Shown one piece after another: positions 1,851 through 58,326 of a stretch of 64,000 nt of DNA. Below the pieces are notes generated by a model, which had not been told where the DNA came from, did not search any database, and saw only the letters and a program-made list of their open reading frames with translations. Both the position numbers and the translations under genes were made by a program. The stretch comes from an uncultured Eubacteriales bacterium (lineage in GTDB: Bacteria; Bacillota; Clostridia; Lachnospirales; Lachnospiraceae), in NCBI GenBank assembly GCA_949292785.1, contig CASFBK010000003.1, positions 181,164 to 245,163 of the forward strand, in the 5' to 3' direction. Each line of letters opens with the position of its first letter. Within the stretch, counting starts at the first letter, position 1.

Positions 1851-1856
1851 AATATT

Positions 1857-2585: not shown

Positions 2586-2592
2586 TTTAAGT

Positions 2593-2967: not shown

Positions 2968-2991
2968 CCGTTATTATCCTCCTTGATTCTT

Positions 2992-5244: not shown

Positions 5245-5255
5245 ATGTATTCCTC

Positions 5256-5672: not shown

Positions 5673-5782
5673 CTTAACCCACCTCCGTGTGATGTACGAA
5701 ACAGCCGAATCGGCAATATCCGGCTGTATCCATATGTTTTCCTATTTTAGTTATCGGTATTTTTCTTTAAAAATTAATGATT

Positions 5783-5998
5783 TTATAATATATTTTTTAA
5801 TGCCTCCAGGCTCTCTGAAGTAATTGCCGCTTTATTTTCTTCCTCTATCTGCAGATATACTTCTTTCCGGTAAACAGGAACTTCCTTTGGTGCACTGATT
5901 CCAATCTTCACCTGGTCGCCACGCATTTCCAGAATACTGATTTCAATGTTATTGTTAATAATAATAGATTCGCCTTTTTTTCTGGTTAATGCCAGCAT
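5783..5998 (-). CDS. csrA: carbon storage regulator CsrA (71 aa)
   Basis: RNA-binding dimer that recognises A-N-GGA in hairpin loops. In Firmicutes it represses flagellin translation until FliW is freed by flagellin export. The sequence begins MLALTRKKGESIIINNN, the signature beta strand, and continues with VKIGISAPKEVPVYRKEVY. The ATG at 5998 is chosen over an in-frame GTG nine bases upstream because it gives the canonical N-terminus. The fliW stop codon ends two bases before this ATG, so the pair is likely translationally coupled. Confidence 0.97.
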   Translation of the reverse strand: MLALTRKKGESIIINNNIEISILEMRGDQVKIGISAPKEVPVYRKEVYLQIEEENKAAITSESLEALKNIL

Positions 5999-5999
5999 C

Positions 6000-6464
6000 C
6001 TATTCACCTGCCTTTGTTTTTTTGTTCTGCAAAATATCGTATATCATGTATTTTACAGGAAAACTATCATCTATAATTAACTGCTCTGCTTTTAATTCAT
6101 CTACATTGATAACGATAGGTGCTTTTAAATTGACACTTAACTTCTTGATATCAGACGGTACCGTGACCGTTACCAGCACATACGTGTTTTCCTCCGTGAG
6201 ATTTCCGAGACTTTTTAGCATTTCATGCTCCACTTGAGGATTATAGTCTTCTTTTACTAACAACGGGTCCATGACCGGAAGCGCAAAGGAAGGTTCATCC
6301 AAAGACTGTAACCAGGAAATGTTTTTCCGCTCTCCATCTTCTGCCTCGTCAAAAATCAATGTAAACTGTTTGCAATCCGGAAAACCAATAATTCCATTTT
6401 CAAAACAGATTATCTTATCTTTTTCAATCTCAATTTCCCCAAAAAGTCTTGTATTTACCTTCAT
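6000..6464 (-). CDS. fliW: flagellar assembly factor FliW (154 aa)
   Basis: FliW binds either flagellin or CsrA; when flagellin is exported, FliW sequesters CsrA and frees flagellin mRNA for translation. The N-terminus TRLFGEIEIEKDKIICFENG followed by GIIGFP, and the later VTVTVPSDIKKLSVNLKAPI, are diagnostic. It sits between flgL and csrA in the order common to Firmicutes. GGAGG precedes the ATG. Stop and csrA start are almost adjacent, which favours a fixed protein ratio. Confidence 0.96.
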   Translation of the reverse strand: MKVNTRLFGEIEIEKDKIICFENGIIGFPDCKQFTLIFDEAEDGERKNISWLQSLDEPSFALPVMDPLLVKEDYNPQVEHEMLKSLGNLTEENTYVLVTVTVPSDIKKLSVNLKAPIVINVDELKAEQLIIDDSFPVKYMIYDILQNKKTKAGE

Positions 6465-6482
6465 CTGTTCTCCTCCAACTTA

Positions 6483-8018: not shown

Positions 8019-8030
8019 TTAAGTTCCTCC

Positions 8031-9866: not shown

Positions 9867-9883
9867 GTTTTCACCTCTTTTTC

Positions 9884-11584
9884 TTATCCAAGCTGAGTTA
9901 TAATGTGTTCTAACATCTCTGAAATCACATTGATATATCGGCTGGCTGCATTGTATGCGTTCTGATATTTAATCATGTTCGTCAGTTCTTCATCTGAAGA
10001 AACTCCGATGACCTGCTGTCTCTGGTTTTCGATACTCGCTACAGAACCGGAAAGGCTCTCTGCAACACTTTCGTATACATTTCCTTTTGTTGCAAGTCCA
10101 TTCATGAATTTCTCGTAGTATCCTTCAAAGGTACAAGGATCGGTATCGTTTGGATTTAAAATCAATCCCTTTTTCTCCCATGCTGCTGCAAGCTCTTCCG
10201 CCATTGCCTGCGCAACATCACCATTCTGCATTAAATACGGAAGATTGGATTCTGATTCCAATAAGTCCTGATTGATAGATACTCCATATGTGGTATACAT
10301 CTTAGAGGTATCCGTGGTATCCTCCTCATTGTATACATAATATACGGTTCCGTCATCTGCTGTTACTTCTGTATAACGCTCCATGCCGCGTCTTACAAAC
10401 AATTCACGTCCCGGCTTTTGTCCATCATTACCAACACAGCCTTTTTCTTCATCCCAGACCTTTACATTATCGTATACCGTTCCATCTGCTCCGGTAAAGC
10501 TTGCAGTAGTCAGCGGACTTAATACGTCATTGATTGCTGTTATAATTCCATGCACCAGCTGGTCAAATTCTGCTTCTGCGGAAAGCATAACAGACATTCC
10601 TGCGCCATCGTTATACTGGTCTGCAGTAAGTCCTGCCACATCCGTATAGTTGGCAATGCGGTCTCCTCTTGCCAGTACCAGCGCCTTTAAAGAACCGATA
10701 TCTGTATTCATTTCTGAACTGATATCTACACTATAGTCGAACACTTCCGTATACTGTCCCTGACTTTCATCTGACAAATGCGGCCAGGTCGGAGTGATAA
10801 AACCAGTCAACCGGTCCGTCTTCTGTCCCATTTCAAATACATGAACTTCGTCTACAAATGTAACGCCTTCCACCTTCACCTTTACAATGCCATTTGATGT
10901 TTCTTCAAAGGTTATTTCCGCATACTTGGAAAGCTCATCCAATGCATTATCTCTTTCATCCCGCATGGTCATCGCCGTCTCAATATTGCCGGCTTCCACT
11001 TTCTGAATCTGCGTGTTCAGCTTCTGAATCGTACGTCCTAATTCATTGATACGGTCAATGGCATCAGAGACTTTCAGATTAATCTGATTCTGATATGCCT
11101 TCATATTATCGTAAATTCCCTGAGAACGTTCAATAAATAATGTTGCCTTCTGAATCACCAGATTTTGATTTACTGTATCATCCGGAATCTTTGCAAATTC
11201 CTGAAATGCTGTCCAGAAATCATACATTCCATCCTGAAATGCTTCTCCCTCTAATTCCTGAAAGGAAGTAATTACTTCCTGTACCGCTTCATTGGTAGCA
11301 TCATAAAATGCCTGTCTTCCTGTTTCGGTACGATAATATTTATCCAAAAAATAATCTCTGGTATGTACTACGTCTGCAATATTTACACCAAGTCCTGCCT
11401 GCTGTTTACTGATTGCCGCCGTTACATCAAAGGTATTATAATTTCTGTCTGAAAATAGCACCTGCTGTCTGACATATCCGGTTGTTTCCACGTTTGCCAG
11501 ATTGTTGGCAGTAGTATTTAATGCGTTTTGACTGTTCTGTAATCCGGATGCTCCGATATACAGACTTCCCATTCCGTTTGCCAT
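9884..11584 (-). CDS. flgK: flagellar hook-associated protein FlgK, first copy (566 aa)
   Basis: First hook-filament junction protein. The N-terminus MANGMGSLYIGASGLQNSQN with TTANNLANVETTGYVRQQ and the C-terminal NMIKYQNAYNAASRYINVIS are diagnostic for FlgK. It lies directly after flgN, whose product is its export chaperone. AGGAGG precedes the ATG. A second FlgK-family gene follows immediately, so this operon encodes two candidate junction proteins plus FlgL. Confidence 0.93.
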   Translation of the reverse strand: MANGMGSLYIGASGLQNSQNALNTTANNLANVETTGYVRQQVLFSDRNYNTFDVTAAISKQQAGLGVNIADVVHTRDYFLDKYYRTETGRQAFYDATNEAVQEVITSFQELEGEAFQDGMYDFWTAFQEFAKIPDDTVNQNLVIQKATLFIERSQGIYDNMKAYQNQINLKVSDAIDRINELGRTIQKLNTQIQKVEAGNIETAMTMRDERDNALDELSKYAEITFEETSNGIVKVKVEGVTFVDEVHVFEMGQKTDRLTGFITPTWPHLSDESQGQYTEVFDYSVDISSEMNTDIGSLKALVLARGDRIANYTDVAGLTADQYNDGAGMSVMLSAEAEFDQLVHGIITAINDVLSPLTTASFTGADGTVYDNVKVWDEEKGCVGNDGQKPGRELFVRRGMERYTEVTADDGTVYYVYNEEDTTDTSKMYTTYGVSINQDLLESESNLPYLMQNGDVAQAMAEELAAAWEKKGLILNPNDTDPCTFEGYYEKFMNGLATKGNVYESVAESLSGSVASIENQRQQVIGVSSDEELTNMIKYQNAYNAASRYINVISEMLEHIITQLG

Positions 11585-11598
11585 ATCTACCTTTCCTC

Positions 11599-12111
11599 CT
11601 ACTGTTTGGCATCAAATCCCCGGCTGCCCAATACCTCTCCGGTGTTATTTGCCCTTTTATCGTAATTTGCTGTGGTGGGCGCCTGACGCATACTTTTAAA
11701 AAGCGTCAAATCAAACTCTACCATTTCCATCGCCTGAGTCAGCAAAATTTCATTCTGTGTATTTATATCTGCCATCTTGGTAAGCGTACTTTTCAGTCTT
11801 TCTCGAATCGACTGAAGCTTCTGCTGTTCTTCCGGCTGTTTATTTAAAAACGCTATCATATTAGTAATCGTCAACTCTTCAGGATCTTTACTAAGTACGA
11901 TAGCCATATCTTTCACAACCTGTTCTCTTTTATTTTCCAGATTCTTCAGATTACTGGTTATTTCCTGTTCTCTTCCTGTCATATCCTCAAGAGCGGGAAC
12001 ATCTCCGTCTATGATAATCTGTCTCTTCTGGATAGACAATTCCGTAAGACGTTCATATTCCCCATTCTCTTTTTCAAGGATATCCATGAAATCTTCCATT
12101 AAGCTAGCCAC
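11599..12111 (-). CDS. flgN: flagellar export chaperone FlgN (170 aa)
   Basis: FlgN binds FlgK and FlgL before export. The protein is helical and charged (LMEDFMDILEKENGEYERL, then KRQIIIDGDVPALEDMTGRE), as in the FlgN family, and lies between flgM and flgK as expected. The start is a GTG at 12111 with GAGG seven bases upstream; the first internal ATG (12099) has no properly spaced SD. Confidence 0.9.
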   Translation of the reverse strand: MASLMEDFMDILEKENGEYERLTELSIQKRQIIIDGDVPALEDMTGREQEITSNLKNLENKREQVVKDMAIVLSKDPEELTITNMIAFLNKQPEEQQKLQSIRERLKSTLTKMADINTQNEILLTQAMEMVEFDLTLFKSMRQAPTTANYDKRANNTGEVLGSRGFDAKQ

Positions 12112-12126
12112 GTCTGAACCTCATTT

Positions 12127-12411
12127 CTACAAATATACATTGTATGCATTGTATTTCTCAATTAATTTTGCTGCAAAATCTCCTGCTTCTACTTTGTAGT
12201 TACCAGAGCCAATCTCTGCCTTTAACTGTGCAACTTTATCTTCTCTGATATCGGAGGCTTCCGCTACTGCCTGCTTTGCCACCTGATAATCACGACCAGT
12301 CTGGGAAATCTGCACTTCGTCACGTTTTCCGGATGCCTGTGCCCCTTTTAGCTTAGAAGCTTTTGCTGAATTGTAAACCTTGTTAATCTGATTATATGCT
12401 TCTATACGCAT
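12127..12411 (-). CDS. flgM: anti-sigma-28 factor FlgM (94 aa)
   Basis: FlgM holds the flagellar sigma factor inactive until it is exported through the finished hook. The N-terminal half is disordered and basic; the C-terminal half (RDYQVAKQAVAEASDIRE, then KVAQLKAEIGSGNYKVEA and AAKLIEKY) is the FlgM sigma-binding region. AAAGGAG precedes the ATG. It is the first gene of the operon that runs to fliS and is itself preceded by a near-perfect sigma-28 promoter, so the anti-sigma factor is under autogenous feedback. Confidence 0.95.
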   Translation of the reverse strand: MRIEAYNQINKVYNSAKASKLKGAQASGKRDEVQISQTGRDYQVAKQAVAEASDIREDKVAQLKAEIGSGNYKVEAGDFAAKLIEKYNAYNVYL

Positions 12412-45071: not shown

Positions 45072-45812
45072 CTATCTATGTACTTCTACGATTTTTTGTG
45101 CCAGCAGACAGGAAGCTCCATAAACGGTAAGACACAGGCTCATAATCAACACACCCGGAAGATTCCCATATAAGGGTTCTAAAAATTCCGGCATTCCCAC
45201 TCCTATGTAAATCAGGATTCCACAAGGCACCAGCGCCATAATTTTTTGTTCCAGCTTCTTTCCTGAGATTAAGGTCTCAATTTCCCTTTGTACCTCTATC
45301 TGTTCTGCAATTCTTTCTGTGCTGTCCCGAAAAATCTTAACTACATCGCCACCGCCTCGCTTTGCAAATCCAAACACCTGGGAAAAGCTTTCGATTTCTT
45401 CTATTCCACTTCTCTCTGCAAAATCTTCTAACAATTTTTCTATGGGTATGTTCATTCTAAGCTGATGATTAATGACTGCAAATTCCCGCGCCATAACACA
45501 TTCTTTTCCATATAATTGAACAAAATCCCGTTCTCCCTCGCGAAAAGCATTTTCCATGGAATAGCCTGCTTTGAGTAGTCCTGCAATTATCTGAAGCATC
45601 TCCTGAAACTGATAAAGCATTTCCTGCTCCCGCTTTTCCTTCCGATACCTTCGCAGCTGCCTTTTGGAGATTTCTAAACAAAGTGGAAATAATAGCACGG
45701 CATAAACACTTCGATAGAAAAGCCATGCGACCATTCCGGTTCCCGCTGCCGCAATGCTGAAACACACCAGCCATTCTTTCCGGGAAAAATAATATTTACT
45801 GTAATCCGGCAT
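45072..45812 (-). CDS. tadB: TadB-like pilus assembly membrane protein (246 aa)
   Basis: Two N-terminal hydrophobic segments (LVCFSIAAAGTGMVAWLFYR), a GspF domain (about 60-195: LYQFQEMLQIIAGLLKAGYS, then SFSQVFGFAKRGGGDVVKIF) and C-terminal helices. It is the usual partner of TadC on the ATPase TadA. It overlaps the tadA 3' end by 17 bases, with GGAGG six bases before the ATG, so translation is coupled. Confidence 0.9.
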   Translation of the reverse strand: MPDYSKYYFSRKEWLVCFSIAAAGTGMVAWLFYRSVYAVLLFPLCLEISKRQLRRYRKEKREQEMLYQFQEMLQIIAGLLKAGYSMENAFREGERDFVQLYGKECVMAREFAVINHQLRMNIPIEKLLEDFAERSGIEEIESFSQVFGFAKRGGGDVVKIFRDSTERIAEQIEVQREIETLISGKKLEQKIMALVPCGILIYIGVGMPEFLEPLYGNLPGVLIMSLCLTVYGASCLLAQKIVEVHR

Positions 45813-47040
45813 TTATTTCCTCCATTCCTGCCGCTATCAGCTTTTCCCGATGCTGCATTTCTCCCTTTTTCTCCCAAAAACCCATGATTCTTCCAGATTG
45901 CATTCCCCTTTCTACAAATTCATACAATGGATTCAACTGAATCTCTCCCTCTTTTACTCCATCTAATTCCATGATAGATAGCACTCTGCGACTTTTATCC
46001 CGCAGTCTGCCCAGATGTACCATAATGTCAATTCCAGAAGCTATCTGAGCGCGAATTGCCGATAGCGGCAGCTCCATCCCCATCAAAACCATGGTCTCCA
46101 TGCGGCTTAACATGTCCTGACAGCTATTGGCATGTCCGGTACTTAAGGAACCGTCGTGTCCGGTATTCATTGCCTGAAGCATGTCCAGACACTCTGCGCC
46201 TCGAATTTCCCCAACAATAATACGAGTCGGGCGCATTCTTAGTGCGGTGCGAATCAAATTCCGTATGCTAATTTCCAGTGTTCCTTCTACTCCGGCATTT
46301 CGCGTTTCCAGCCGCACCAGATTGGGAATTCCCTGTAACTGCAATTCTGCCGAATCTTCAATGGTAATCACTCGCTCTGTTTCCGGTATAAATGCTGATA
46401 ATGCATTGAGAAAAGTGGTCTTTCCTGAGCCTGTCCCTCCGGAAATAAAGATGTTGTATCCTGACTTTACCAGGCGTTCCAGCAGTGCCGCACATTCTGC
46501 ACCAATACTTTCTCCCGCTATCAGCTCCTCCATTCCCAGAGGATGCTTTGGAAACTTTCGTATGGTTACTGCCGGGCCGTCTATGGCAATCGGGTCGAGC
46601 ACCACATTTACTCTTGAGCCGTCTGCCAGCCTGGTATCTGCAATGGGCTGAGCTGTATTTATCATACGGTTATGATTTCCCACCATTTGTTGAATGATAT
46701 CTTCCAACCGCTCCTTCGAGGAAAAAAACTGGTTCCACAAAAACATACTGCCATTTTTTTCATAGAAAATCTTTCCGGCGCCATTTACCATAATCTCTGT
46801 AATATCCTCCCGCTCTAAAAGCTCCTGCAGCACATCCAGTCTGCGCAGGGAATGAAACACTTGAGTACGAAGCCTGCGCCTCTGACTTAGGGAAATTACC
46901 TTTTCTTTTGTATAGTCAAATATTTCTCCGTCAATTACTTCCAACAGTCGTTCCTCTTCATTTTCCCTGGTAACATCTAACCGCCTCAGTACCCGTTTCT
47001 TAATCTCTTCTGCTTCTTCCATCCAATAATTCTCTGACAT
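45796..47040 (-). CDS. tadA: Tad pilus assembly ATPase TadA/CpaF (414 aa)
   Basis: Hexameric secretion ATPase that drives Flp pilus assembly. Walker A ISGGTGSGKTTF (residues 199-210), the Asp box region IEDSAELQLQGIPNLVRLET, Walker B RPTRIIVGEIRGAECLDMLQ and the His box DGSLSTGHANSCQDMLSRME are all intact. The N-terminal domain (to about 165) matches CpaF. It overlaps the upstream CpaE-like gene by 41 bases. Confidence 0.96.
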   Translation of the reverse strand: MSENYWMEEAEEIKKRVLRRLDVTRENEEERLLEVIDGEIFDYTKEKVISLSQRRRLRTQVFHSLRRLDVLQELLEREDITEIMVNGAGKIFYEKNGSMFLWNQFFSSKERLEDIIQQMVGNHNRMINTAQPIADTRLADGSRVNVVLDPIAIDGPAVTIRKFPKHPLGMEELIAGESIGAECAALLERLVKSGYNIFISGGTGSGKTTFLNALSAFIPETERVITIEDSAELQLQGIPNLVRLETRNAGVEGTLEISIRNLIRTALRMRPTRIIVGEIRGAECLDMLQAMNTGHDGSLSTGHANSCQDMLSRMETMVLMGMELPLSAIRAQIASGIDIMVHLGRLRDKSRRVLSIMELDGVKEGEIQLNPLYEFVERGMQSGRIMGFWEKKGEMQHREKLIAAGMEEINAGLQ

Positions 47041-48034
47041 AATCCCCCTGCTCTCCCCATAGCCATTGCTGCATCAAGCATCCCGGCATGAAGCTTTCCC
47101 GGCTCCACTCCGGCAGCGTAAGCCATGATATTTTTTCTTCTAATTCCGGATTCCGCTGACGTCTTACCATCCCTTCAAACTCCTTAGCAATTCCCCTTGC
47201 TAACACGTTTTGTTCCCGAGGAATATAAATGTGTCTGCACTGATTCCATATGCGAAAAAATCCCGGAAACATACTGCCCATATCTAACATAATGACGTCG
47301 TAGGATGTTCTTTTTAGTAATTCCATTAATGCACTGTAGTCTTCTTTTTCCAACTCACCCAGCAGAGTACCATCCCGTACAGGCGCAAGATAATCCAACT
47401 GCTCCATAGCATGTACGAAGCCACCCAGCTCTATGGACGTCTTTTGCTCTCTTTCCCGGCAAAAATACATCATATCCAGCAAATCTTTCTCGTATTCCTC
47501 CTGAAACCATTGCTCCAGACCACTACACTCTTTTAAACTAACATACAGCACCTTTTCTTTTTCTGCCAAAAGAGCAGCCATAGTCATAGCTAACGGCGTC
47601 TGCCAGATACTCTGCTCCGGGGAATACCACCCCAGAAATCTGACATCTTCCCCTAATATCCCAATGTCCTCTTTACGATATTCCTCATAATATCGGTAAA
47701 TACTTCGTATCATCACAGAAACCGGCTGATACTTTTCCACAGCGGGAAGTTTTTCCGGGAAAATATTCACATCTGTCTCTCCCTCTTCTCTTAAATAAAT
47801 CCAAAGAATATCTTTCCTCTGCTTTATTTCCTTCTGAATCCATGCTTCACTTAAAAGCGCCCTGCCTAATAAGACCACCTGAAAGCTCTGCTTTTCATAC
47901 TGTTCTTTAAATATTTCTGAGGACGAAAAGAAGCCGCCGCAAAAGTCTGTTCCCCGCTCCACAAAAAGCCAGGTACCCACACGTTCTCCATAGGACTGAT
48001 TTTCGTCGCATACTGCCACCGACAATTTACTCAA
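47000..48034 (-). CDS. CpaE/TadZ-like protein with degenerate P-loop (344 aa)
   Basis: An N-terminal receiver-like region (LSVAVCDENQSYGERVGTWL) precedes a MinD/ParA-like fold (FLGWYSPEQSIWQTPLAMTM, then VLYVSLKECSGLEQWF, YDVIMLDMGSMFPGFFRIWN). The Walker A Lys/Thr motif GKT is absent: the loop reads SPEQSIWQTPLA, so ATP hydrolysis is unlikely. TadZ proteins place the pilus machine at the pole. The TTG start at 48034 overlaps the previous stop (TTGA) and has GAGG upstream. Confidence 0.78.
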   Translation of the reverse strand: MSKLSVAVCDENQSYGERVGTWLFVERGTDFCGGFFSSSEIFKEQYEKQSFQVVLLGRALLSEAWIQKEIKQRKDILWIYLREEGETDVNIFPEKLPAVEKYQPVSVMIRSIYRYYEEYRKEDIGILGEDVRFLGWYSPEQSIWQTPLAMTMAALLAEKEKVLYVSLKECSGLEQWFQEEYEKDLLDMMYFCREREQKTSIELGGFVHAMEQLDYLAPVRDGTLLGELEKEDYSALMELLKRTSYDVIMLDMGSMFPGFFRIWNQCRHIYIPREQNVLARGIAKEFEGMVRRQRNPELEEKISWLTLPEWSRESFMPGCLMQQWLWGEQGDYVRELLDGRSRRD

Positions 48035-48531
48035 CCAACCACCTCACAAGCTATGAAAAAACCAATTAATATTGCAACTGAAAAATGAATGAAATTTTGT
48101 TTTCCCCCAGACTCTCTCGGGTATTTTAGAATCTTTCCTGTTGCCATCACCTGACATACATAATCCCGAAAGACACACAGACGTGAAAAAAGATTGCGTT
48201 CAAGAATAAGCTTACAGAATGATATTACTGCTCCAATGAAAAAACTTGCCATGATTGTAATACATGCTATTTTCAGATTCCAAATACTGCTAATTACGGA
48301 AAACAATTTGATGTCGCCTGCCCCAAGGGCACGCATAAGAAATAATAGATATAATAAGATAACCGGTATAGATACATTTACGATGAATATTCCCACTCCT
48401 CTGATTCCATATTGCCAGACTTGAATAAGGAGTCCTATAAGCAGTCCGCTTACAATCAGCCGGTTACTGATTCGACAGGACCTTATATCCATCCACACTG
48501 CCACGCTTAACAATAGCAGTGTCAAAATCAC
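48031..48531 (-). CDS. A24 family prepilin peptidase TadV/CpaA (166 aa)
   Basis: Cleaves the Flp and pseudopilin leaders in the membrane. Catalytic Asp15 (VWMDIRSCRISN) and Asp73 (GAGDIKLF) are in the canonical contexts. Five or six transmembrane segments. The GTG at 48531 is the start, although the SD is weak (GGAAA). It is the first gene of the Tad locus, 47 bases after the -10 box of a good promoter. Confidence 0.92.
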   Translation of the reverse strand: MILTLLLLSVAVWMDIRSCRISNRLIVSGLLIGLLIQVWQYGIRGVGIFIVNVSIPVILLYLLFLMRALGAGDIKLFSVISSIWNLKIACITIMASFFIGAVISFCKLILERNLFSRLCVFRDYVCQVMATGKILKYPRESGGKQNFIHFSVAILIGFFIACEVVG

Positions 48532-48642: not shown

Positions 48643-48927
48643 TTACAAAAAACGATAGAGCATAATTCCATACAACAGCGCAAACCCGCTGATACCAAGG
48701 CTTCCGATTGTCAATGCGCTGACCGGATTAACCCCTACTGCTACGGCAATCCCCTGGGACTCAAGTATCTTATTTACAATGCTGATTCCCACAACTCCTA
48801 CCGCGGCACGGCTGAAAAAGACCGCTGCCACTCTTGCTTTCTGCTTCATAATTCCCATAAAAATCACTACCAGACAGATTCCGGCAATTGCTATCATTCC
48901 ATATTCCTGTTCCATATGCTGTTCCAT
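48643..48927 (-). CDS. BofA-like membrane protein (94 aa)
   Basis: The C-terminal part VGVNPVSALTIGSLGISGFA carries the V-N-P-x-(S/T)-A-L-x-x-G-x-L-G-x-x-G signature of the pro-sigma-K processing inhibitor BofA. Two N-terminal hydrophobic segments precede it. In Bacillus BofA restrains the SpoIVFB protease during sporulation. The SD is weak for either ATG (48927 or four codons in). It is divergent from the DUF2508 gene, a partnership seen in other Firmicutes. Confidence 0.82.
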   Translation of the reverse strand: MEQHMEQEYGMIAIAGICLVVIFMGIMKQKARVAAVFFSRAAVGVVGISIVNKILESQGIAVAVGVNPVSALTIGSLGISGFALLYGIMLYRFL

Positions 48928-49059: not shown

Positions 49060-49320
49060 ATGTTTCAGAGTTCAAAAAAGCAGCTGCCACATTCTACTGC
49101 TTACTCTTTACTTTTAGATGACTTAGAAAAGGCCAGATATGATCTGGCACTTGCTTATGATAATTTTCAAAATGCCATGGATCCGGACATGATAGACTCT
49201 TGTATTTATCAGGTAAATGCTTTGCAAATGCGGTATAAATTTCTGCTTACCCGGGTAAAGCAGCTCGCTCCTGTGGAAGAGGTTTCTACGGAAGAAGAAC
49301 TTTTTCTCCAAAAAGTTTAA
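49060..49320 (+). CDS. DUF2508 (YaaL-like) family protein (86 aa)
   Basis: A small helical cytoplasmic protein. LLLDDLEKARYDLALAYDNF, then DPDMIDSCIYQVNALQMRYK and FLLTRVKQ fit DUF2508, to which B. subtilis YaaL, encoded beside bofA, belongs. The BofA-like gene is again adjacent here, though divergent. GGAAAGGG precedes the ATG. Function is unknown, with sporulation inferred only from company. Confidence 0.82.
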   Translation: MFQSSKKQLPHSTAYSLLLDDLEKARYDLALAYDNFQNAMDPDMIDSCIYQVNALQMRYKFLLTRVKQLAPVEEVSTEEELFLQKV

Positions 49321-49378: not shown

Positions 49379-49855
49379 TTATGCCAAAAATCCTCTGGTA
49401 CTTTCCGAGCCTTGAAGCGTTTCTGTCAAAGCTCCCTTTTGATAAGTCATACCAACCACTACCTGCTGGGTATGCTGCATCAACGGTTCCGAGGTATCGT
49501 GCTGTGCCGCTTCCCAGAAACCATCATAGAGATTGCGCAATACCTTTTTGGCATCCACAATGTTCTGTGATGAATTTTTTACGATAGCAAGCGCTAACAA
49601 TTCATTGATAAAACGATAAAGTGCATGAAGGTCCTTAGAAACCGGATAATTAAAATCCAATGTTCCCATAAGCCTTCTTACTACCTGCTGTGCCTTATGA
49701 ATGGAATCCTTAAACCCTTTGTAGTCCTCGGATTTTTCCGCCTCTAAGGCATCTTCCAGATAGGAAAACAGGATATCGTAAATAATAATCATCATTTCAC
49801 CGCGATTACAACAACTGAGTCTTCGGGTAAAATCCTGTTTTTTTTCATCTTTCAT
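49379..49855 (-). CDS. divergent FliS-like flagellin chaperone (158 aa)
   Basis: The middle (EMMIIIYDILFSYLEDALEA, then VVRRLMGTLDFNYPVSKDLH, ALYRFINELLALA) is FliS-like. The normal N-terminal Tyr-rich segment is replaced by MKDEKKQDFTRRLSCCNRGE, and a 25-residue C-terminal tail is added. It starts 14 bases after the second flagellin stop codon, so it is probably the chaperone dedicated to that flagellin. The bidirectional terminator follows. Confidence 0.85.
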   Translation of the reverse strand: MKDEKKQDFTRRLSCCNRGEMMIIIYDILFSYLEDALEAEKSEDYKGFKDSIHKAQQVVRRLMGTLDFNYPVSKDLHALYRFINELLALAIVKNSSQNIVDAKKVLRNLYDGFWEAAQHDTSEPLMQHTQQVVVGMTYQKGALTETLQGSESTRGFLA

Positions 49856-49868: not shown

Positions 49869-51317
49869 CTACTGTAACAACTGAAGTACCTGCTGAGGAA
49901 TATCATTTGCCTGGGCAAGTACAGAGGTTGCCGCCTGGGATAATACGTTATATTTGGTATATTCGGACATCTCTTCTGCCATATCTACGTCTTCAATACG
50001 GGAAAGAGCTGCGGTCATATTCTCTTCTGTTCCTTCCAGACTGTTTACTGCTGAATCCAGACGATTCTGATATGCACCAATTTTGGAGCGCGCTTCACTT
50101 ACCTTACTGATAGCATAGTCAAAGCTGGTAATCGCTCTTCCGCCGCCTTCTACGGTACGCACATCTACATCATCAATATAAAGGCTCTTAGCAGAAATCT
50201 CCGGAATACGAACATCCATGGTCTGATTTTCGTTTGCACCAATCTGAAATGTCATAGTTCCTATATCCGTAACCTCCAGTGATACATCTCCTGTCACTCC
50301 CGGCAATACTTCAAAGCTTATTTCAAATCCACTTCTGTCTGTTATTTTCACACGTGTTCCTTCGGTAGACAAGGTTGCCTGTGGGGTAAATCCATTATCC
50401 CCTGTTCCAAAGGATACATCTGCGTCTGCGCCATGCTCTGTATATCCAGCGGCAGGAATTCCAAGATATGCTGCAAGGTCTGCATTGCTGCAGGTAATAT
50501 TGATTTCCTCAGAAGAACCATAACGATTAGATACAAATACCAATGTTCCGCCTGCTGCTACATCTGTCGGTACATATCCTGCATTTTCTGCCGTTCCTCC
50601 GGTAGCCGTAGTATCTGCTACTACCAAAAGATTGACATTTCCGGTCTCTGCGCCGGCACGAAGCTTTTCGTATACCTGTTCAAAGGTATCTCCTTCTTTA
50701 ATCTCTACTTCAACACCATTAATTACGACCTTACCTTCCTGTGCCGCAGTTACGGGTGCGGTTGAAGCTGCCGCTATTCCCTCACCAACTGCATGTTCTG
50801 CCTCTGCATTCACGGTCACGGAGTAAACTCCCTTTTCCACATTGTCAGAAATATCAATCCGGTCTATTCCCCTGACACTTGGGTATACTCTGATATCCTG
50901 GGTTCCATCTAACAGATTCATTGTATTATATTCCGTATCTCTGGAAACACGGTCAATTTCATCGGTAAGGGATGAAATCTCTGCCTGAATTGCCTCTAAA
51001 TCATCCGGTGTATTGGTCTCATTTGCTGCCTGTACGGAAAGCTCACGCATTCTTTGCAGCATATCTGCCACTTCATTCAATGCTCCGTCTGCCACCTCTA
51101 ATACAGAAACTCCATCAGAAGCATTTCTGGATGCCTGATTCAGACCCTTAATCTGAGCATTCATTTTGCTGGCAATCGCCATTCCTGCTGCATCATCTGA
51201 TGCATGATTGATACGAAGACCGGAAGATAAACGCTCTAAGGAAGCGGTCAATCCGTTTTCTGTTCTTAATAACTGTTTATTGGCAATAACTGCCGACATA
51301 TTGTGATTAATTTTCAT
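49869..51317 (-). CDS. flagellin, long form (482 aa)
   Basis: The N-terminal D0/D1 (MKINHNMSAVIANKQLLRTE, then LERLSSGLRINHASDDAAG) and the C-terminal helix (VLSQAATSVLAQANDIPQQV) are complete. Residues about 140-385 form an inserted outer domain not present in the short flagellin, with GKVVINGVEVEIKEGDTFEQ as in flagellin/hook accessory folds. The ATG at 51317 has AGAGGTG six bases upstream; the open frame starts three codons earlier at a GTG that overlaps this SD. It has its own sigma-28 promoter and is followed by its FliS-like partner. Confidence 0.95.
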   Translation of the reverse strand: MKINHNMSAVIANKQLLRTENGLTASLERLSSGLRINHASDDAAGMAIASKMNAQIKGLNQASRNASDGVSVLEVADGALNEVADMLQRMRELSVQAANETNTPDDLEAIQAEISSLTDEIDRVSRDTEYNTMNLLDGTQDIRVYPSVRGIDRIDISDNVEKGVYSVTVNAEAEHAVGEGIAAASTAPVTAAQEGKVVINGVEVEIKEGDTFEQVYEKLRAGAETGNVNLLVVADTTATGGTAENAGYVPTDVAAGGTLVFVSNRYGSSEEINITCSNADLAAYLGIPAAGYTEHGADADVSFGTGDNGFTPQATLSTEGTRVKITDRSGFEISFEVLPGVTGDVSLEVTDIGTMTFQIGANENQTMDVRIPEISAKSLYIDDVDVRTVEGGGRAITSFDYAISKVSEARSKIGAYQNRLDSAVNSLEGTEENMTAALSRIEDVDMAEEMSEYTKYNVLSQAATSVLAQANDIPQQVLQLLQ

Positions 51318-51366: not shown

Positions 51367-51394
51367 TATATCGGCTTCCCTGCCTGAAATATTA
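51367..51394 (-). promoter_or_regulatory. sigma-28 promoter of long flagellin
   Basis: Minus strand TAATATTT (51387-51394), 12 bases, CCGATATA (51367-51374). The -10 box is identical to that of the short flagellin. The leader of about 45 bases contains CAGGAGA, a possible but weaker CsrA site. Confidence 0.83.
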
Positions 51395-51429
51395 AGCCGT
51401 CTCTTCCATTTTCCGGCTATGAAGTTCTT

Positions 51430-54400
51430 TTACTCTGCTTTTGCAAGCTGCTTTACTGCTCCAATAAATTCCTTTGCCATACCATACAAGGTCTTGGTCT
51501 GCACCTCATATTCTTCCTGAGGCTGCCCGCTAATATCACCATAGGTTCTGTTGTCTAAGGTAAACTGATTAATATCCAGACTTTCACTTTGAATCATATC
51601 CAGATTCGGAGACAAGGTTCCCTCCATACTTAATTGCTCCTGAAGCATATCCTTCTGGTCTTTTAATTTATTTATGGTATCTGTGGAATCCGATGCAATG
51701 TATCCCTTTACCTTTTCTCCCTGTACCTGGAATCTGGCTGCTACTTTACCAAGCTTTGGTGAATCAAAAACAACATCTAATCTTCCGCGTTTTTCGGTTC
51801 CTCTTACAATCTTAAGCTGGATATTGGTGTATTCATCTGCTACCAGAACCGGGATTGCATAATTTTCTTCCTTTGCCATCTTCGTTCCCAGTTCGATTTC
51901 CTGACGCAGTATCTTTAAATCCCGAACCTGAAAGCTTTGTACATCCGTAGACTCTGCCATGGTCTTCATCACATTTTCTGCTACATCTGCCAGCTTCTTC
52001 TGTGCCTTTGCCATGTCCTCCGGTGTCTTTACTGCTTCTGCAAAGTCTTCGAGTATGCCCTGTTTTACTTCTTCTAAGTCAATATCCGTTTCTTCGCCAT
52101 CGCGTTCAAACAACGTCTTGAACATTCCGTTCCGGTTATGTAGCATCTGCTCTGCAGCCAATACATTGTAAGCAGTTACCGGCATATCATATCCGGTAAG
52201 TAATTTTAACACCTGCTCTTCCGCTCCCCTTGCTCTGGAAAATTCCTCTAACTGCTCCTTATAGTATGCCTCTTCCAAAGTCTGGTCTGCTTCCGTCTGC
52301 TTTAACTGCCACAACAGCTCTTCCGGCGTCATTTCATCGACACTTCCCTGGGCTGCCGTCTGTTCCAAGCCTTCCGGTGTCATCATGCCAAATGCTTCTT
52401 TGGCGCAATCGGTCTGATATGCTGCCTCTATCTGTTGAGATATGCTTAATTCCTGTGTATTTACCGTATCGGCTTCTCCAAAGCTGTCATCTACCGACAC
52501 ATTGATTCCCGGATTCCGGTTGGTTCTTACTGCGGTCAGCAGGTTTTTCATGCTAAGCTCTGCGCCTTGATTGAGCAATGCTCCAATCACAGCACCGTCC
52601 GTCTTATCAATCTGATTCAGCAAACGGTATATTCCAATATAGCTGTCCCGCTCTTCCGGTGTGATTTCCTGCTTCTGCTCCATTTTCCAGAGATATTTGC
52701 TGAACTTCTCCTCACCGCCTGCATCAATCTGAGTCTTAATCTCTTCTGCCTTAGCATTTAACTGATTGATGTCCATCTCCAATGGATTGATTCCTTCTCT
52801 TATCATTTCCATTACCACAGACGGAGAAAGATTCTGGAACAACACCTGAACCTTCTGGTCTGCTGCCTTCATCTGCTGAGTGGAATCTGCTGTAATCTCT
52901 AACTGGTTATATGCCAGGATTCTTACGGCTCTTTGATTGGCTTCTGTTGTTTCCATTCCAAGGTCTTTTAAAATATCATCTACATTCTGAAATGCTTTTT
53001 GAATGGAATCTCCCATATCCGCTCTTGGCGCGGTCATTAAAGTCTCATACGCTTCTCCTGCCTTCTGCATTTCTGCCTTTAAGGCTGTTCCATTTTCATG
53101 CAGCGTGTTGACCGTATGATGTTCCGGCGCTGTGGTTCCTAATACATATGCCGGAACACCCTTTAATTCTTCTGTCTTACCTACTGTTTCTGCAAGAAGC
53201 GCCGCATTTTCCTGGGTAGGCGCAATCCCATTATTTTCTAACAGATTCTTATAATAATCGTTTTCCAGAGACTTTAACTGTTCTACCAGTTCTTCTAACG
53301 GCTGGGTCTCTATACTGATTCCCTTTTTCAACAGAGCATAATTAGCTTGTGTTGTCATCATCAGACGTATTTCTTCTAACTGGCGGCGTGCAGTAATGTA
53401 TTTGATGTCATCCTGTGCATATTCCGGAATCTGAGTTATTGCCGCTTTTGTATCAGCACTGTCAGTCTCTTTTGTATCACCGCCAGCATTTGCCACATTA
53501 CTGTTATGGGCTGCTGCAAGGCTCTCAATAGTTACCTGCTGTCCTCTTTCTACTACTGTCCAGATATCTGCATCTGTGATATTTTCCACCACTTCTGCTG
53601 CCTGCTGTGCTCTGTCTGCCATACTGTAGCCATCAAGCACCATAGCATCGCCTGGGCGTTTTCCCTCGGAAACAGCCGTCATCATGCTGTCCATTATCTT
53701 TGCCACATCCAGTGGGAATTCCATTTCATACAGGTCTGCTGCATACTTGAGATTCTCTGCTGTAAGTGGAATGTCGTTTTCTAACATCCACTGGCTATAT
53801 CCCAATGTGGTCTCGTTGACTTCTAATCCGGCTTCTTTGATGACCTGTTCAATCTGCTTCTTGAAGTTCTCATCCATAACCGGCTCCTGCTGCATCGGCG
53901 CTGTCATTCCTGCTGACGTGCTATGCTGCGCCTTGTAGAGATTTTCTACCGTTGGAGGCAGTTCGTTTTCTACCATATATTTTACGGTCTGCTCGTTGCA
54001 TTTCGTTAAATCTGCCGCTTGCTTTAAGGTCTCTTCACAGTCCGAAATATTTTCCTCAGTAGCAGGCAAATCTGCTGACGTAATTGCCTGCTCCATCTGG
54101 TATGCCATGCCGGTGCTTCCCAACATTTCTGCCAGCTGGTCCATGCTTAAATCATCACCAAAAATACTGATATCCACACCTGCTTTGGCAAGCTCCATCT
54201 TAATCTTGTCCATCTCTGTTACGACGGTCTTTACTTCTGTATTATTTAAGGAAAAACCATCCTCATCCATCTTGGCACAATCATCGGCAGAAGCAGTATT
54301 GGTTACAGCCGCCATCTGGTCTTTATAGTGCTTTACCTCCATGTTCTCTGCTTCCTGACGGATTTTGTCCATTTCCGACTGGGAATCTCCACCAAAAAAG

Positions 54401-54561
54401 GGCTTGTCTACCGTGGTCTGCTGCACAGAACGCACCTCGCCGGTTGTCTTATCAATCTGCTGTGTTGTGGTCTGCTGAGTCTGAACGGTAACATTCCCTT
54501 TTATTTCTACACTGTTATTTGATTTTGTAATTTCCAATATATTACTATTATCTACTCTCAT
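51430..54561 (-). CDS. giant flagellar-regulon protein, DUF6240-like, FliK-like C-terminal segment (1043 aa)
   Basis: A cytoplasmic or exported protein without signal peptide or membrane segment. It holds scattered short repeats of the form E-N-x-(L/I)-P-x-T-x-E-N-L, for example ENELPPTVENL, ENDIPLTAENL and NNGIAPTQEN, and weaker copies such as GYDMPVTAYNV. Residues about 897-981 (LDVVFDSPKLGKVAARFQVQ, then GEKVKGYIASDS) resemble the C-terminal domain of FliK hook-length proteins. I recall such proteins as DUF6240. The ATG at 54561 has GGAG eight bases upstream. A sigma-28-type promoter precedes it and the long flagellin follows, so a flagellar role is inferred. Confidence 0.75.
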   Translation of the reverse strand: MRVDNSNILEITKSNNSVEIKGNVTVQTQQTTTQQIDKTTGEVRSVQQTTVDKPFFGGDSQSEMDKIRQEAENMEVKHYKDQMAAVTNTASADDCAKMDEDGFSLNNTEVKTVVTEMDKIKMELAKAGVDISIFGDDLSMDQLAEMLGSTGMAYQMEQAITSADLPATEENISDCEETLKQAADLTKCNEQTVKYMVENELPPTVENLYKAQHSTSAGMTAPMQQEPVMDENFKKQIEQVIKEAGLEVNETTLGYSQWMLENDIPLTAENLKYAADLYEMEFPLDVAKIMDSMMTAVSEGKRPGDAMVLDGYSMADRAQQAAEVVENITDADIWTVVERGQQVTIESLAAAHNSNVANAGGDTKETDSADTKAAITQIPEYAQDDIKYITARRQLEEIRLMMTTQANYALLKKGISIETQPLEELVEQLKSLENDYYKNLLENNGIAPTQENAALLAETVGKTEELKGVPAYVLGTTAPEHHTVNTLHENGTALKAEMQKAGEAYETLMTAPRADMGDSIQKAFQNVDDILKDLGMETTEANQRAVRILAYNQLEITADSTQQMKAADQKVQVLFQNLSPSVVMEMIREGINPLEMDINQLNAKAEEIKTQIDAGGEEKFSKYLWKMEQKQEITPEERDSYIGIYRLLNQIDKTDGAVIGALLNQGAELSMKNLLTAVRTNRNPGINVSVDDSFGEADTVNTQELSISQQIEAAYQTDCAKEAFGMMTPEGLEQTAAQGSVDEMTPEELLWQLKQTEADQTLEEAYYKEQLEEFSRARGAEEQVLKLLTGYDMPVTAYNVLAAEQMLHNRNGMFKTLFERDGEETDIDLEEVKQGILEDFAEAVKTPEDMAKAQKKLADVAENVMKTMAESTDVQSFQVRDLKILRQEIELGTKMAKEENYAIPVLVADEYTNIQLKIVRGTEKRGRLDVVFDSPKLGKVAARFQVQGEKVKGYIASDSTDTINKLKDQKDMLQEQLSMEGTLSPNLDMIQSESLDINQFTLDNRTYGDISGQPQEEYEVQTKTLYGMAKEFIGAVKQLAKAE

Positions 54562-54618: not shown

Positions 54619-54647
54619 TATTTCGGTAATAAGTGCGGGAAACTTTA
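54619..54647 (-). promoter_or_regulatory. sigma-28-like promoter of the giant protein gene
   Basis: Minus strand TAAAGTTT (54640-54647), 13 bases, CCGAAATA (54619-54626). The -35 box is perfect; the spacer is one base longer than in the other three and the -10 box has one change (CCGAAAT). Confidence 0.7.
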
Positions 54648-54656: not shown

Positions 54657-57179
54657 TTACTTTATATACCCCAGAAAAACGTTTCCGGCAGCATCAAACA
54701 TTGTCTTGCTGTCCTGAAGTCCCATTTTGTAAGTAGTATTTGTTTCCGGATTGTAAAGAATGGTGTTATGCTCATCATATCCCACAATCAGTAATGCTTC
54801 ATTGTTTACTACTGCAAATACCGGAGTTTTGAGATTTACATAATATAAAACCTGTTCTACATTGCATCCGGTCAGATCAATGACCTTATAATCCGTCAAG
54901 GCTTCTGTCAGTATCTGCTTTGGAGTTTCTCCCTGTGTCAGAAGTCCCTCTACGTCCATACTGATTCCTTCTGTCTGAAGAATCGCTGTCAGACATCTTG
55001 CGGCAGAACTTTCTCCTGTCTGGCTTAAATCAACACTGACAGCTCCCACTACCGGCTGAGAAGACTTTCTTCCTCTGCGCCAGATATATTTCTGCTGGTC
55101 GCCAATTACAACTCCCATATTACTATCCGCTGTAGTAACTGCTTCTGATACAAATGGTGTCGCCTTTACAATCTTTCCGGCACTATACACATAATATATC
55201 TCCTGCTCTGTACTGGTATCCAAAGTAACGCTGCGGTCTTCCTTGACCAGAATCTCCTTTGGCACTACAACCTGAGGCGCCTTTTTCAGTTCTTCTCTAT
55301 CACCTGCAAATGCAAATCGTACAATACTCTGTTTTTGTCCTGACTGAACGGTTTCTATTGTAATATTTCTTCCTGCTTCCAACTGCTGATTTTTAATGGT
55401 ATCCTGCTCCGCAGGCACATATCCGGCTCCATTTTGATATACCCGGTTCAAAAAGATGGTTTCGTTTTCTACATATGCCTTTGTAATATAATATCCATCC
55501 TTTTGATAGTCCTTTACCACCTCTCCCTTTTCGTCTACAATCTGTACCCGATACATAGGAAACTGTGTATTTCCGGCACTGTCAATTACCACATCAGATT
55601 GTCTTGCTGCCCCATATACAAAGTCATCCTGCACAAATCCAATTGGTAATAAATATTCTCCTTCACTGGCTTGAATTTCTCGAATTTCTTCTCCTTCTAA
55701 ATCCATAATTTTCAGGCTATCCGCATTATAACGATTGTCAGAATCCTGCCATGCAATATATCTTCCCGTATCTGATACCGCATACTGCCCTGCTTCTAAA
55801 CCAGTCAAAACCTTTTTGCTTTCTCTGCTATACAAATTAATACTGTAAAGATTATCTCCTGCCAGTAAATAGAATACATTTCCGTCACTGACATAGAAAA
55901 TATTGCCCCACTCTATCTTTAACATCTCATAAGACTTATCTGACGGAATAAACAACTCTTCTTCTGTGGTATTTCCCACTCCATCATAATGGTACACCGC
56001 AATTCCGGTATTTCCCTCATGGTCACCGCGATTCATATAGCCATAGACTACAAAATCCATACTTCCCACTTCGTCTATTTTTATAATCTTAATCTGATGC
56101 TGGGGATTATTTTCTCTCTCGTCAATTCCCTCTGCGCCCCGAAAACTGAATATCTTAGTGAGCCGATTATCGTCACTGCTATAGCTCCACAGCTCTCCTT
56201 CCTGTACAAATGCAATAACACTTCCTTTTTCATTGGTCATGTACTCCACATTGCCGGAACGAATACCAAGAGAGATACTGTCTGCCGCGACTCTGTCACT
56301 TTCTCCCCGGAAAATCTCATTCATGGTACGCTCATAATTCAAAAGATACATACGCGCGTTTCCATAACGCACCCGATAATATTCTTCTACATTATAGTAC
56401 TCAACTTCTCCATTCTCTCCGGTTGCCGTCATCACATAATTTAAAACAATGGTATTATAGGAGCTTCCGATTTCCTTTATGGATGGCACCGGTTTTCCTA
56501 CCCGCTCCCCTTCAAAATCTGCCCATGTCACCTGTTTTAAACTGGAATTAATCGTTACTTTTTGAAGAGATGTGTTATCTGCCTGGGCATTGGGCTCTAA
56601 GTAAGTCGCCAGACTGTCTGCTCCCTCTTCCTGAAAGGTCTGCTCATGGAAGTTCATGACAAAATCTACCGATTCCTTTACATAATACCCGCTTTCCCGA
56701 ATAATTCTGGTATAGTAATAAACCTCTCTTCCGTCACATTGCAGCGTTAAAATCAGAAGGTATTCGTTGCCTTCTTCCAATATATTTTGAAATTGGAGTT
56801 CCAAATTGATTTCCCCATCTTTCTGGGAAAAACTCTTTATATTCCCTTCCTCCATCAGTCGTTCCATATCCATGGTACGCACCTGATAGGAAATTTCTTC
56901 AATCTGGCTCTGATATACCTTAATATTAACAGGCAGCGTCAGGTCTTCCTCAAGAGGCGCGATGGCATCACGTACCCCTGTTCCATCCATTTCCCGGGTG
57001 TATCCATATAATTCATTAATCTCTGTCCCGTTTTCCATCAAAGAAACGGTCGGCAGAGAAGCCTCCGACATTTTGGTTGTAAGATCTATATTATTCTGAT
57101 GGGTCAACAAACTGGTTACGATTACTGTTACTACAAAAACAGCCACCAATATAATTGCTTTTAAAACACCCTTACGCAT
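54657..57179 (-). CDS. membrane-anchored extracellular protein with degenerate C39-like domain (840 aa)
   Basis: One N-terminal transmembrane helix (AIILVAVFVVTVIVTSLLTH) and a large outside part with beta-propeller-like stretches (about 320-560: IAFVQEGELWSYSSDDNRLT, GNIFYVSDGNVFYLLAGDNL, ISLYSRE-like turns). The C-terminal 120 residues (SSAARCLTAILQTEGISMDV, PVFAVVNNEALLIVGYDEHN, TILYNPETN) match the C39 peptidase fold, but the catalytic Cys, His and Asp positions appear to be Ser, Ala and Asn. The ATG at 57179 overlaps the methyltransferase stop region; the open frame begins six codons earlier at 57197. Confidence 0.72.
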   Translation of the reverse strand: MRKGVLKAIILVAVFVVTVIVTSLLTHQNNIDLTTKMSEASLPTVSLMENGTEINELYGYTREMDGTGVRDAIAPLEEDLTLPVNIKVYQSQIEEISYQVRTMDMERLMEEGNIKSFSQKDGEINLELQFQNILEEGNEYLLILTLQCDGREVYYYTRIIRESGYYVKESVDFVMNFHEQTFQEEGADSLATYLEPNAQADNTSLQKVTINSSLKQVTWADFEGERVGKPVPSIKEIGSSYNTIVLNYVMTATGENGEVEYYNVEEYYRVRYGNARMYLLNYERTMNEIFRGESDRVAADSISLGIRSGNVEYMTNEKGSVIAFVQEGELWSYSSDDNRLTKIFSFRGAEGIDERENNPQHQIKIIKIDEVGSMDFVVYGYMNRGDHEGNTGIAVYHYDGVGNTTEEELFIPSDKSYEMLKIEWGNIFYVSDGNVFYLLAGDNLYSINLYSRESKKVLTGLEAGQYAVSDTGRYIAWQDSDNRYNADSLKIMDLEGEEIREIQASEGEYLLPIGFVQDDFVYGAARQSDVVIDSAGNTQFPMYRVQIVDEKGEVVKDYQKDGYYITKAYVENETIFLNRVYQNGAGYVPAEQDTIKNQQLEAGRNITIETVQSGQKQSIVRFAFAGDREELKKAPQVVVPKEILVKEDRSVTLDTSTEQEIYYVYSAGKIVKATPFVSEAVTTADSNMGVVIGDQQKYIWRRGRKSSQPVVGAVSVDLSQTGESSAARCLTAILQTEGISMDVEGLLTQGETPKQILTEALTDYKVIDLTGCNVEQVLYYVNLKTPVFAVVNNEALLIVGYDEHNTILYNPETNTTYKMGLQDSKTMFDAAGNVFLGYIK

Positions 57180-58326
57180 TTTGTCTGTCCTTTCCATTCT
57201 GTAATGTTTCTAATGTAGGAGCTACTCCAAAGAATTCCATCACCTTACGGTAATCTGCTCCATCCTTGCCGCCGTTCTTTTTTACTCCGCGAATCAGTAT
57301 ATTCTTAGGGGTATGTTCCATGTCAATAAATTCCAAAATCTGTACCTGATACCCCTTACTTTCTAATATCTCTGCACGCAAGGCATCCGTAAGCAATGCT
57401 GCCATTCTTTCTTTAATCAGTCCGTATTTTAACACAGGCTGTAGCAATTCATTCTCTATCTGCTGATTCAACTCATGCTGACAGCAGGGCACAGATAAAA
57501 TTACCTTTGCTCCCCATTTTACTGCCTTGTCCAATGCATAATCCGTAGCAGTATCACATGCATGAAGCGTCACCACCATATCTACTGCATCTACGCCTTC
57601 GTACTGAGCAATGTCTCCTACCAGAAACTGCAATCCGCTATACCCATATTTTTGTGCGAGCTCGTTGCAACGTGCAATCACATCAGCCTTTAAGTCCAGA
57701 CCGATAATTCGCACCGGATATCCCTTTAACTCCTTCAAATAATGATACATGGCAAAGGTTAAATAAGATTTGCCACATCCAAAATCGAGTATAGTCACTT
57801 CCCTGTCCTTCGGAAGTTCTGGTAAAATATCTTCGATAAATTCCAAAAAACGATTTATCTGCCGGAACTTATCATACTTTGCATGAACAATCTTTCCTTC
57901 TCTGGTCTGAACCCCAAGGTCTATCAAAAAGCCGACTGGTCTTTCCGGCTCCAGAATATATTTTTTCTTTCTGTTATGGGATAGGTCCACTTGCTTTGCA
58001 CAGACAGATGTCTTTTTTTCCTTGATGGTAATTTTTCCTTTTTTACTGATAAGAACCGTTGCTTGTCCTAACTGTGCGGAAATCTCTAACTGCCGATATT
58101 CTTCCATCCGGCTTAAGATTTGGCGGACAGCATCTTCTCTTGTCAGATTTTTATGATACACTTTTTTCTCTTTATATTCGCTTGCCTGAAACATCAGTTC
58201 TTCCTTGACCAGAACCGGGCGGAGATGGATTTTTCCAGCTGCCTCCCGGTTCCGCGGATTACTGATAATGATTTGTACAAGACTTTGATTCAGATATTTA
58301 TATAAGAGTTCTCGTAATTCTTCCAT
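57172..58326 (-). CDS. SAM-dependent methyltransferase (384 aa)
   Basis: A class I methyltransferase with motif I ILDFGCGKSYLTFAMYHYL (about residues 179-197), GLDLKADVIARCNEL and VVTLHACDTATDYAL. SVPCCQHELNQQ and a long C-terminal helical part follow. The CCQHE motif is typical of the METTL25/Methyltransf_32 group. The N-terminal 120 residues are a separate basic domain (LISKKGKITIKEKKT). The substrate is likely RNA or protein but not known. The start at 58326 (GAAAGG six bases upstream) is preferred to 58404, where the frame runs through a tandem repeat. Confidence 0.85.
   Translation of the reverse strand: MEELRELLYKYLNQSLVQIIISNPRNREAAGKIHLRPVLVKEELMFQASEYKEKKVYHKNLTREDAVRQILSRMEEYRQLEISAQLGQATVLISKKGKITIKEKKTSVCAKQVDLSHNRKKKYILEPERPVGFLIDLGVQTREGKIVHAKYDKFRQINRFLEFIEDILPELPKDREVTILDFGCGKSYLTFAMYHYLKELKGYPVRIIGLDLKADVIARCNELAQKYGYSGLQFLVGDIAQYEGVDAVDMVVTLHACDTATDYALDKAVKWGAKVILSVPCCQHELNQQIENELLQPVLKYGLIKERMAALLTDALRAEILESKGYQVQILEFIDMEHTPKNILIRGVKKNGGKDGADYRKVMEFFGVAPTLETLQNGKDRQNA

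Follow-up and report, generated by a model that had tools for sequence, protein, structure and literature searches.

Hook growth is ended by FliK, at a stage when the sigma-28 genes are still off. In the textbook order, as set out in the account of the switch in PMC7911332, the C-terminal domain of FliK meets the C-terminal domain of FlhB (FlhB-C) when the hook has reached sufficient length, the export gate switches, FlgM exits, and the sigma-28 genes come on. HpaC of Xanthomonas, an analogy only and taken from a different type III system, is a T3S4 model that acts on the C-terminal domain of an FlhB-family protein and favours late substrates; the portion of its report that treats this action proposes that HpaC is cytoplasmic (PMC3040844). 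The subject here is a gene of the DUF6240 family (PF19753) in a 64,000-nucleotide stretch, hereafter the window, from an uncultured Lachnospiraceae bacterium (contig CASFBK010000003.1, positions 181,164 to 245,163). Read from its sequence, the product would be a late-class member of the FliK superfamily (T3S4) that acts on the FlhB C-terminal part of the export gate during filament growth, a reading held with moderate confidence.

The DUF6240 protein resembles FliK in a probable C-terminal Flg_hook-type domain (PF02120), in its flagellar association, and in a C-terminus that would be expected to face FlhB-C. It differs in that its gene has a sigma-28-type motif and lies beside a flagellin gene, its chain is about twice as long and holds a conserved central repeat unit, and an ordinary FliK coexists with it. 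The Pfam description line of DUF6240 gives no function, and no paper on the family was found in the literature searched, subscription journals lying mostly outside that search.

Translation and Pfam bear out the open reading frame (ORF), its length and its position directly before a flagellin gene, as the first-pass annotation of this DNA had described them; the Flagellin_N score of E 1.9e-45 was obtained on an ORF 9 bases longer. The ATG start gives 1043 residues, and a GTG 9 bases further 5' gives 1046. Against DUF6240 the protein scores 461.5 bits in the Pfam scan, far above the gathering cut-off of 26.6. Inspection by eye revealed no signal peptide, and the first 60 residues are polar and leucine-poor. 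The locus is laid out as follows.

51430..54561, minus strand: DUF6240 protein, 1043 residues, putative late FliK-superfamily member (translation; PF19753 match, E 1.2e-138)
53644..54126, minus strand: first (N-terminal) DUF6240 unit, about residues 146-306 (profile match, E 2.8e-30, at G000:C3:234807-235289)
52537..53379, minus strand: second DUF6240 unit, residues 395-675, with the most conserved stretch (profile match and conservation)
51619..51798, minus strand: Flg_hook (FliK C-terminal) domain, residues 922-981 (Pfam)
51466..51489, minus strand: conserved C-terminal motif LYxxAKxF, residues 1025-1032 (alignments; L1025 invariant in A1 and A2)
54619..54647, minus strand: sigma-28-type promoter motif, TAAA N17 CCGAAATA, 57 bases 5' of the ATG of the DUF6240 gene
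51367..51395, minus strand: the flagellin's own sigma-28-type promoter motif (pattern match)
49869..51317, minus strand: flagellin, directly 3' of the DUF6240 gene (PF00669, 1.9e-45; PF00700, 3.2e-28)
49379..49855, minus strand: FliS-family chaperone, 3' of the flagellin (PF02561, 3e-18)

A FliK-like segment near the C-terminus had been suspected from the letters alone, and a FliK profile does match there: Flg_hook aligns with residues 922-981 at E 1.7e-6 (28.2 bits, the Pfam cut-off being 29.8). The same profile matched 58 of 72 family C-termini at E<=0.01 (window's included; the region spans 172 residues in the window protein), and seven other Pfam families were matched in these 72, each by one member only. 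This C-terminal alignment comprised 71 of 79 loci plus the window, with eight loci left out, and the truncated gene of L168 was left out of the alignments. When whole genomes were searched with Flg_hook, 23 of 33 carriers gave a match to the end of the DUF6240 gene at E<=0.1, and 4 of these matches lay above the curated cut-off. Profile comparison with hhalign aligned the C-terminus of DUF6240 with those of FliK proteins from the same bacterial family at E 9.3e-6 and probability 83; the controls gave 0.35 for reversed columns and 0.22-0.36 for flagellin, FliS and the family of a neighbouring 846-residue protein. An NCBIfam scan of the window protein returned a single IS110 row at E 0.1, which is chance. 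On these profile comparisons the resemblance to FliK is real, and the DUF6240 protein is assigned a probable Flg_hook-type C-terminal domain.

The window's genome contains three clear Flg_hook matches, three more at E 0.6-9.7 being at chance level. Its ordinary FliK lies at L039:7785-9278 in the fla/che operon, before flgD (neighbours judged by eye), so the place of FliK proper, in that operon near flgD, is occupied by a gene other than DUF6240. A separate strong Flg_hook gene is present in 33 of 33 DUF6240 carriers searched (E 4.3e-17 or better; a contig end cuts that of G235), the label of ordinary FliK resting on score and ORF size, with operon position checked in the window's genome only. 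Since a separate ordinary FliK is present, the DUF6240 protein is, as judged from gene content, not the hook-length FliK. A backup or hook-stage FliK that shares or replaces the hook-length role would account for the Flg_hook domain, but it is extremely unlikely in view of the sigma-28-type motif and of the separate strong Flg_hook gene, found in all 33 carriers and also in 24 of 25 genomes with giant homologues, described below (a contig end cuts that of G1173; the exception, G1172, is 83% complete).

The same genome encodes a YlqG-like protein of 643 residues (L040:11201-13132), which adjoins a free C-terminal fragment of FlhB (FlhB-CC; L040:10844-11173). For this FliK paralogue and its FlhB-CC partner we take YlqG, YlqH and FlhX to be the names in use, and no functional paper on a YlqG/YlqH-type pair was found in the literature searched. 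The pair (L040:10844-13132) stands among housekeeping genes, and the N-terminus of the YlqG-like protein has a TOBE match below cut-off. The combination of PxTxEN-type repeats and Flg_hook that marks the YlqG type is also found in the DUF6240 protein: its repeat region aligns with the YlqG-like N-terminal repeats at E 1.1e-5 (hhalign, probability 82, 55 columns), and both proteins end in a Flg_hook C-terminus, although the direct comparison of the two C-termini is weak (E 9.3e-4, probability 22.5). The paralogue differs from DUF6240 in its smaller size, in its housekeeping surroundings and in its upstream region; neither it nor the genome's own FliK has a sigma-28-type motif within 300 bases upstream.

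By contrast with these two genes, the DUF6240 gene has such a motif, in agreement with the flagellar promoter first proposed for it: the site TAAAGTTTCCCGCACTTATTACCGAAATA at 54619-54647(-), upstream of the gene, fits TAAA-N17-CCGAAATA. The pattern TWAA-N15-17-CCGAHATA occurs at three sites in the window, one 5' of DUF6240 and two 5' of flagellins, where 20 shuffles gave an expectation of 0.15. With a second pattern, TAAA-N15-17-HCGATA, two more window sites appear, one 5' of flgM and one inside a flgL-like ORF. In related loci whose upstream sequence was long enough (2 of the 80 were too short and are left out), the motif lies 5' of 48 of 78 DUF6240 genes; the figure is 16 of 55 for flagellin genes and 1 of 483 for other genes. 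By context, it is found 5' of 34 of 53 DUF6240 genes with an adjacent flagellin, 13 of 22 without one, and 1 of 3 undecided. Both patterns were set after the sites had been viewed and were then applied unchanged to the controls, which is a weakness of these counts. A Lachnospiraceae sigma-28 consensus, TAAA N16-17 MCGATAa, is given in PMC3720852, where a TAAA/TCGATAT pair with 17-base spacing is listed for one flagellin of Roseburia hominis. Because the motif is present, and is kept in 13 of 22 loci without an adjacent flagellin, the DUF6240 gene is placed in the late flagellar class, with a predicted dependence on sigma-28.

That its promoter motif is of the same type as the flagellin's would also suit an exported filament protein, structural or at the surface, with an inherited FliK-like tail. 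This is quite improbable, as profile searches against solved structures yielded chance-level matches only (best E 0.043 for the C-terminus and 0.12 for the whole protein) and no structural-protein relative; moreover, in the part of Neville et al. (PMC3720852) concerned with flagellin preparations, those of two species, which may or may not carry DUF6240, are reported to have had major bands of about 28-50 kDa.

The distribution of the family also follows flagella. In a draw of 397 genomes of the window's family, DUF6240 is present in 170 and FlhA in 211: 166 have both, 4 have DUF6240 only, 45 have FlhA only, and 182 have neither. Occurrence independent of flagella is thus contradicted by 166 of 170 carriers, and the proposed flagellar association holds. 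Of the four exceptions, G120 matches DUF6240 weakly (E 2.7e-5) and Flg_hook not at all, the Flg_hook matches of G235 and G328 are strong, and G393, 75% complete, has one Flg_hook match; G151, one of the 166 with both, likewise has a weak DUF6240 match (E 7.2e-4). All 16 loci picked by the author from the match list have flagellin and then FliS 3' of the DUF6240 gene. A larger set, the best 80 of 579 loci in a named genome collection, includes Roseburia, Agathobacter, Eubacterium, Petralouisia and other Lachnospiraceae; close relatives are over-represented in it, and it shares at least four loci with the smaller set (L042, L043, L044, L052). There, 54 of 77 loci (three of the 80 had too little room) have a same-strand flagellin that begins at most 800 bases downstream, with FliS after it in 51 of 52 loci that had room for FliS.

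This frequent adjacency to flagellin and FliS, together with the conserved repeats, would fit a platform in the cytoplasm that escorts or chaperones flagellin and FliS and whose FliK-like domain is just a tag for docking at the gate. Flagellin is, however, already served by FliS as its chaperone, and an escort role alone leaves the free FlhB-CC gene of other families unexplained, so that such a platform is considered rather unlikely.

Searches beyond the window's family brought giant homologues to light. A draw of 391 genomes from the class gave 53 with a DUF6240 match, 36 of them above cut-off, and a draw of 398 from the phylum gave 12 and 6, respectively, none of the latter 6 being outside the class. 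In the class draw, the matches outside the window's family include six ORFs of 807-1242 residues, the others being weaker and on ORFs of 395-675 residues. Of four such weaker ORFs checked, those of the window's own genome, L203 and L204 are YlqG-like, and the 594-residue ORF of L205 matched none of the author's profiles. Sampling of the giants rested on the six large genes, a search of two of their families (with matches in 19 of 20 genomes of one and 5 of 7 of the other), and 20 further loci. All five large genes scanned passed the DUF6240 cut-off, and Flg_hook matched the C-terminal end of 25 of 25 giants examined (E<=0.05), above cut-off in 10 of the 25.

The gene adjoining the giants encodes 88-105 residues. 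For three genes of this FlhB-CC type, a Pfam scan gave a match confined to the end of the FlhB profile (E 1.5e-19 to 7.6e-19); the gene of L199 was called by eye and the rest with a custom profile from five copies. Four aligned flagellin-linked copies start just after the position of the FlhB NPTH cleavage motif, the motif itself being absent. A free FlhB-CC gene lies beside the giants in 23 of 24 loci with room and is absent in L200; the order is giant, FlhB-CC, flagellin, FliS, with flagellin and FliS present in 22 of 22 loci with room. Excluded from this synteny count were L202, where the gene runs off the contig, and G1178, where it lies at a contig end; L219 and L222, and L197 and L225, are near-copies. 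This free fragment, outside the view of the first-pass annotation, is the most telling context. It has a counterpart in HP1575 of Helicobacter pylori, a free FlhB-CC-like homologue of the FlhB C-terminus that is reportedly a 'spare part' of the flagellar gate, and for which, to our knowledge, a linked FliK-like giant has not been described. The YlqG-like paralogue has the same kind of partner. Additionally, the flagellin of L221 (1327-2933) is in two ORFs, broken or an assembly error, and a DUF327 gene (L198:9275-9721) lies divergently upstream of a giant, with similar divergent ORFs seen by eye in L200 and L201.

Profile comparison ties the giants to both families. Their N-terminus matches that of DUF6240 at E 2.9e-22 over 612 columns, and their C-terminus matches YlqG-like proteins at 1.4e-18, DUF6240 at 2.2e-7 and FliK at 2.6e-5, with controls at 0.08 or worse; the giants bridge the DUF6240 and YlqG-like families. 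In a tree of the C-terminal domain (86 rows), one branch sets off the DUF6240 rows (100/100), another the YlqG-like rows (96/98) and a third the FliK rows (98/100); two changes are needed to account for the giants of other families, and DUF6240 sits on a long branch whose placement is not settled.

The short repeats noticed at the outset are genuine. P-x-T-x-E-N occurs three times in the window protein (residues 166, 202 and 265), where 2000 shuffles averaged 0.01 occurrences and never gave more than 1, and a wider form of the motif occurs six times, against 0.07 in shuffles, with one copy (residue 9) outside the repeat region. Two stretches of the protein, about residues 146-306 and 395-675, match the DUF6240 profile. 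Conservation is higher in the central repeat unit (residues 500-675) than in the FliK-like domain, and the first unit is about as conserved as that domain. Since residues 500-675 are the most conserved stretch, a specific partner (flagellin, FliS or FlhA) would be expected there.

These observations bear on a further possibility, that the protein is exported late and measures or ends the filament, as FliK measures the hook. A FliK-like C-terminus and the polar, leucine-poor first 60 residues of the window protein would suit such a ruler or terminator, as would the correlation between the lengths of giant and flagellin (rho 0.58, p 0.006; 21 loci of other families, kinship uncorrected). The longest giant of those 21 loci (1801 residues; L223:3060-11471) goes with the longest flagellin (851 residues). 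The correlation between DUF6240 and flagellin is, however, weak in 54 Lachnospiraceae-type loci (rho 0.26, p 0.06), and flagellar filaments are micrometres long, far exceeding a chain of 1000 residues. The central unit is conserved beyond what a ruler needs, and its higher conservation means that a binding surface fits better than a passive ruler. A ruler is accordingly improbable, and this reading was not adopted, the length correlation being uncorrected and confined to one group. Of what the first-pass annotation proposed, the likeness to FliK, a promoter of sigma-28 type and the link with flagella are supported; neither of the suggested roles, filament-length factor or exported structural protein, is borne out.

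Its domain, then, would make the DUF6240 protein a member of the FliK superfamily; its promoter motif and its place set it apart from the hook-length FliK and point to a late step. The presence of a FliK-like domain, a free FlhB-CC and flagellin with FliS in one late block suggests action on the FlhB C-terminal part of the gate. The protein would be made after the FliK gate switch and the exit of FlgM, and its FliK-like domain would dock on the C-terminal domain of FlhB or, in other families, perhaps on the neighbouring free FlhB-CC copy. It may then hold or tune the gate for the export of flagellin with FliS during filament growth, and the repeat region would bind flagellin, FliS, FlhA or another late-class partner.

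Several findings weigh against this proposal. The Flg_hook score of the window protein lies below the Pfam cut-off, and 14 of 72 C-termini have no match at E<=0.01. The motif is lacking in 30 of 78 DUF6240 upstream regions, and flagellin is not found just downstream in 23 of 77 loci. FlhA-bearing genomes of the family lack DUF6240 in 45 of 211 cases, so that DUF6240 is not required for flagella as such. The FlhB-CC gene of the window's genome is not beside DUF6240; it lies beside the YlqG-like gene, elsewhere in the genome. The Lachnospiraceae-type promoter motif, slightly relaxed, is found 5' of 0 of 24 giants (4 of 123 other genes; L218, with almost no upstream sequence, is excluded from the giant promoter counts), and TAAA-N15-17-HCGATA, present 5' of 20 of 24 giants, is a pattern fitted after the sites had been seen; it also precedes 19 of 123 other genes in the giant loci, all 19 being flagellins by their N-termini.

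A broader form of the proposal, put forward tentatively, is a second, filament-stage specificity switch in Clostridia, which would operate alongside and later than the classical FliK-FlhB hook switch. A FliK-like giant made under sigma-28 and a free FlhB-CC would re-tune or replace that part of the gate for flagellin, and DUF6240 would be the Lachnospiraceae form, using the gate's own FlhB or the FlhB-CC gene located elsewhere. No description of a late FliK paralogue or of a FliK-FlhB-CC-flagellin block was found in the literature searched, with subscription journals again mostly outside it.

Around the DUF6240 gene, an 846-residue protein (54657-57197) lies upstream and has no Pfam match above cut-off; a relative of it was found in 2 of the 16 picked loci and among the two nearest upstream same-strand ORFs in 12 of the 80. 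On the other side, a BofA gene (48643-48927, minus strand) and a DUF2508 gene (49060-49320, plus strand) separate the flagellin-FliS block from pilus-type genes, namely an A24 leader peptidase (48031-48531) and a T2SSE ATPase (45796-47040); the BofA-like gene is kept in 11 and the DUF2508 gene in 10 of the 16 picked loci. A second late flagellar cluster, about 40 kb from the DUF6240 gene (1026-12411), contains flagellin, FliS, FlaG, FliW, FlgN and FlgM by Pfam, and FliD, FlgL and two FlgK-like genes by eye.

Some Lachnospiraceae flagellins are reported to be pro-inflammatory, in the part of PMC3720852 that concerns them. If the proposal is true, some bacteria would exert a second round of control over the export gate while the filament grows, and a testable role would be given both to the DUF6240 protein of motile Lachnospiraceae and to the YlqG/YlqH-type pair.

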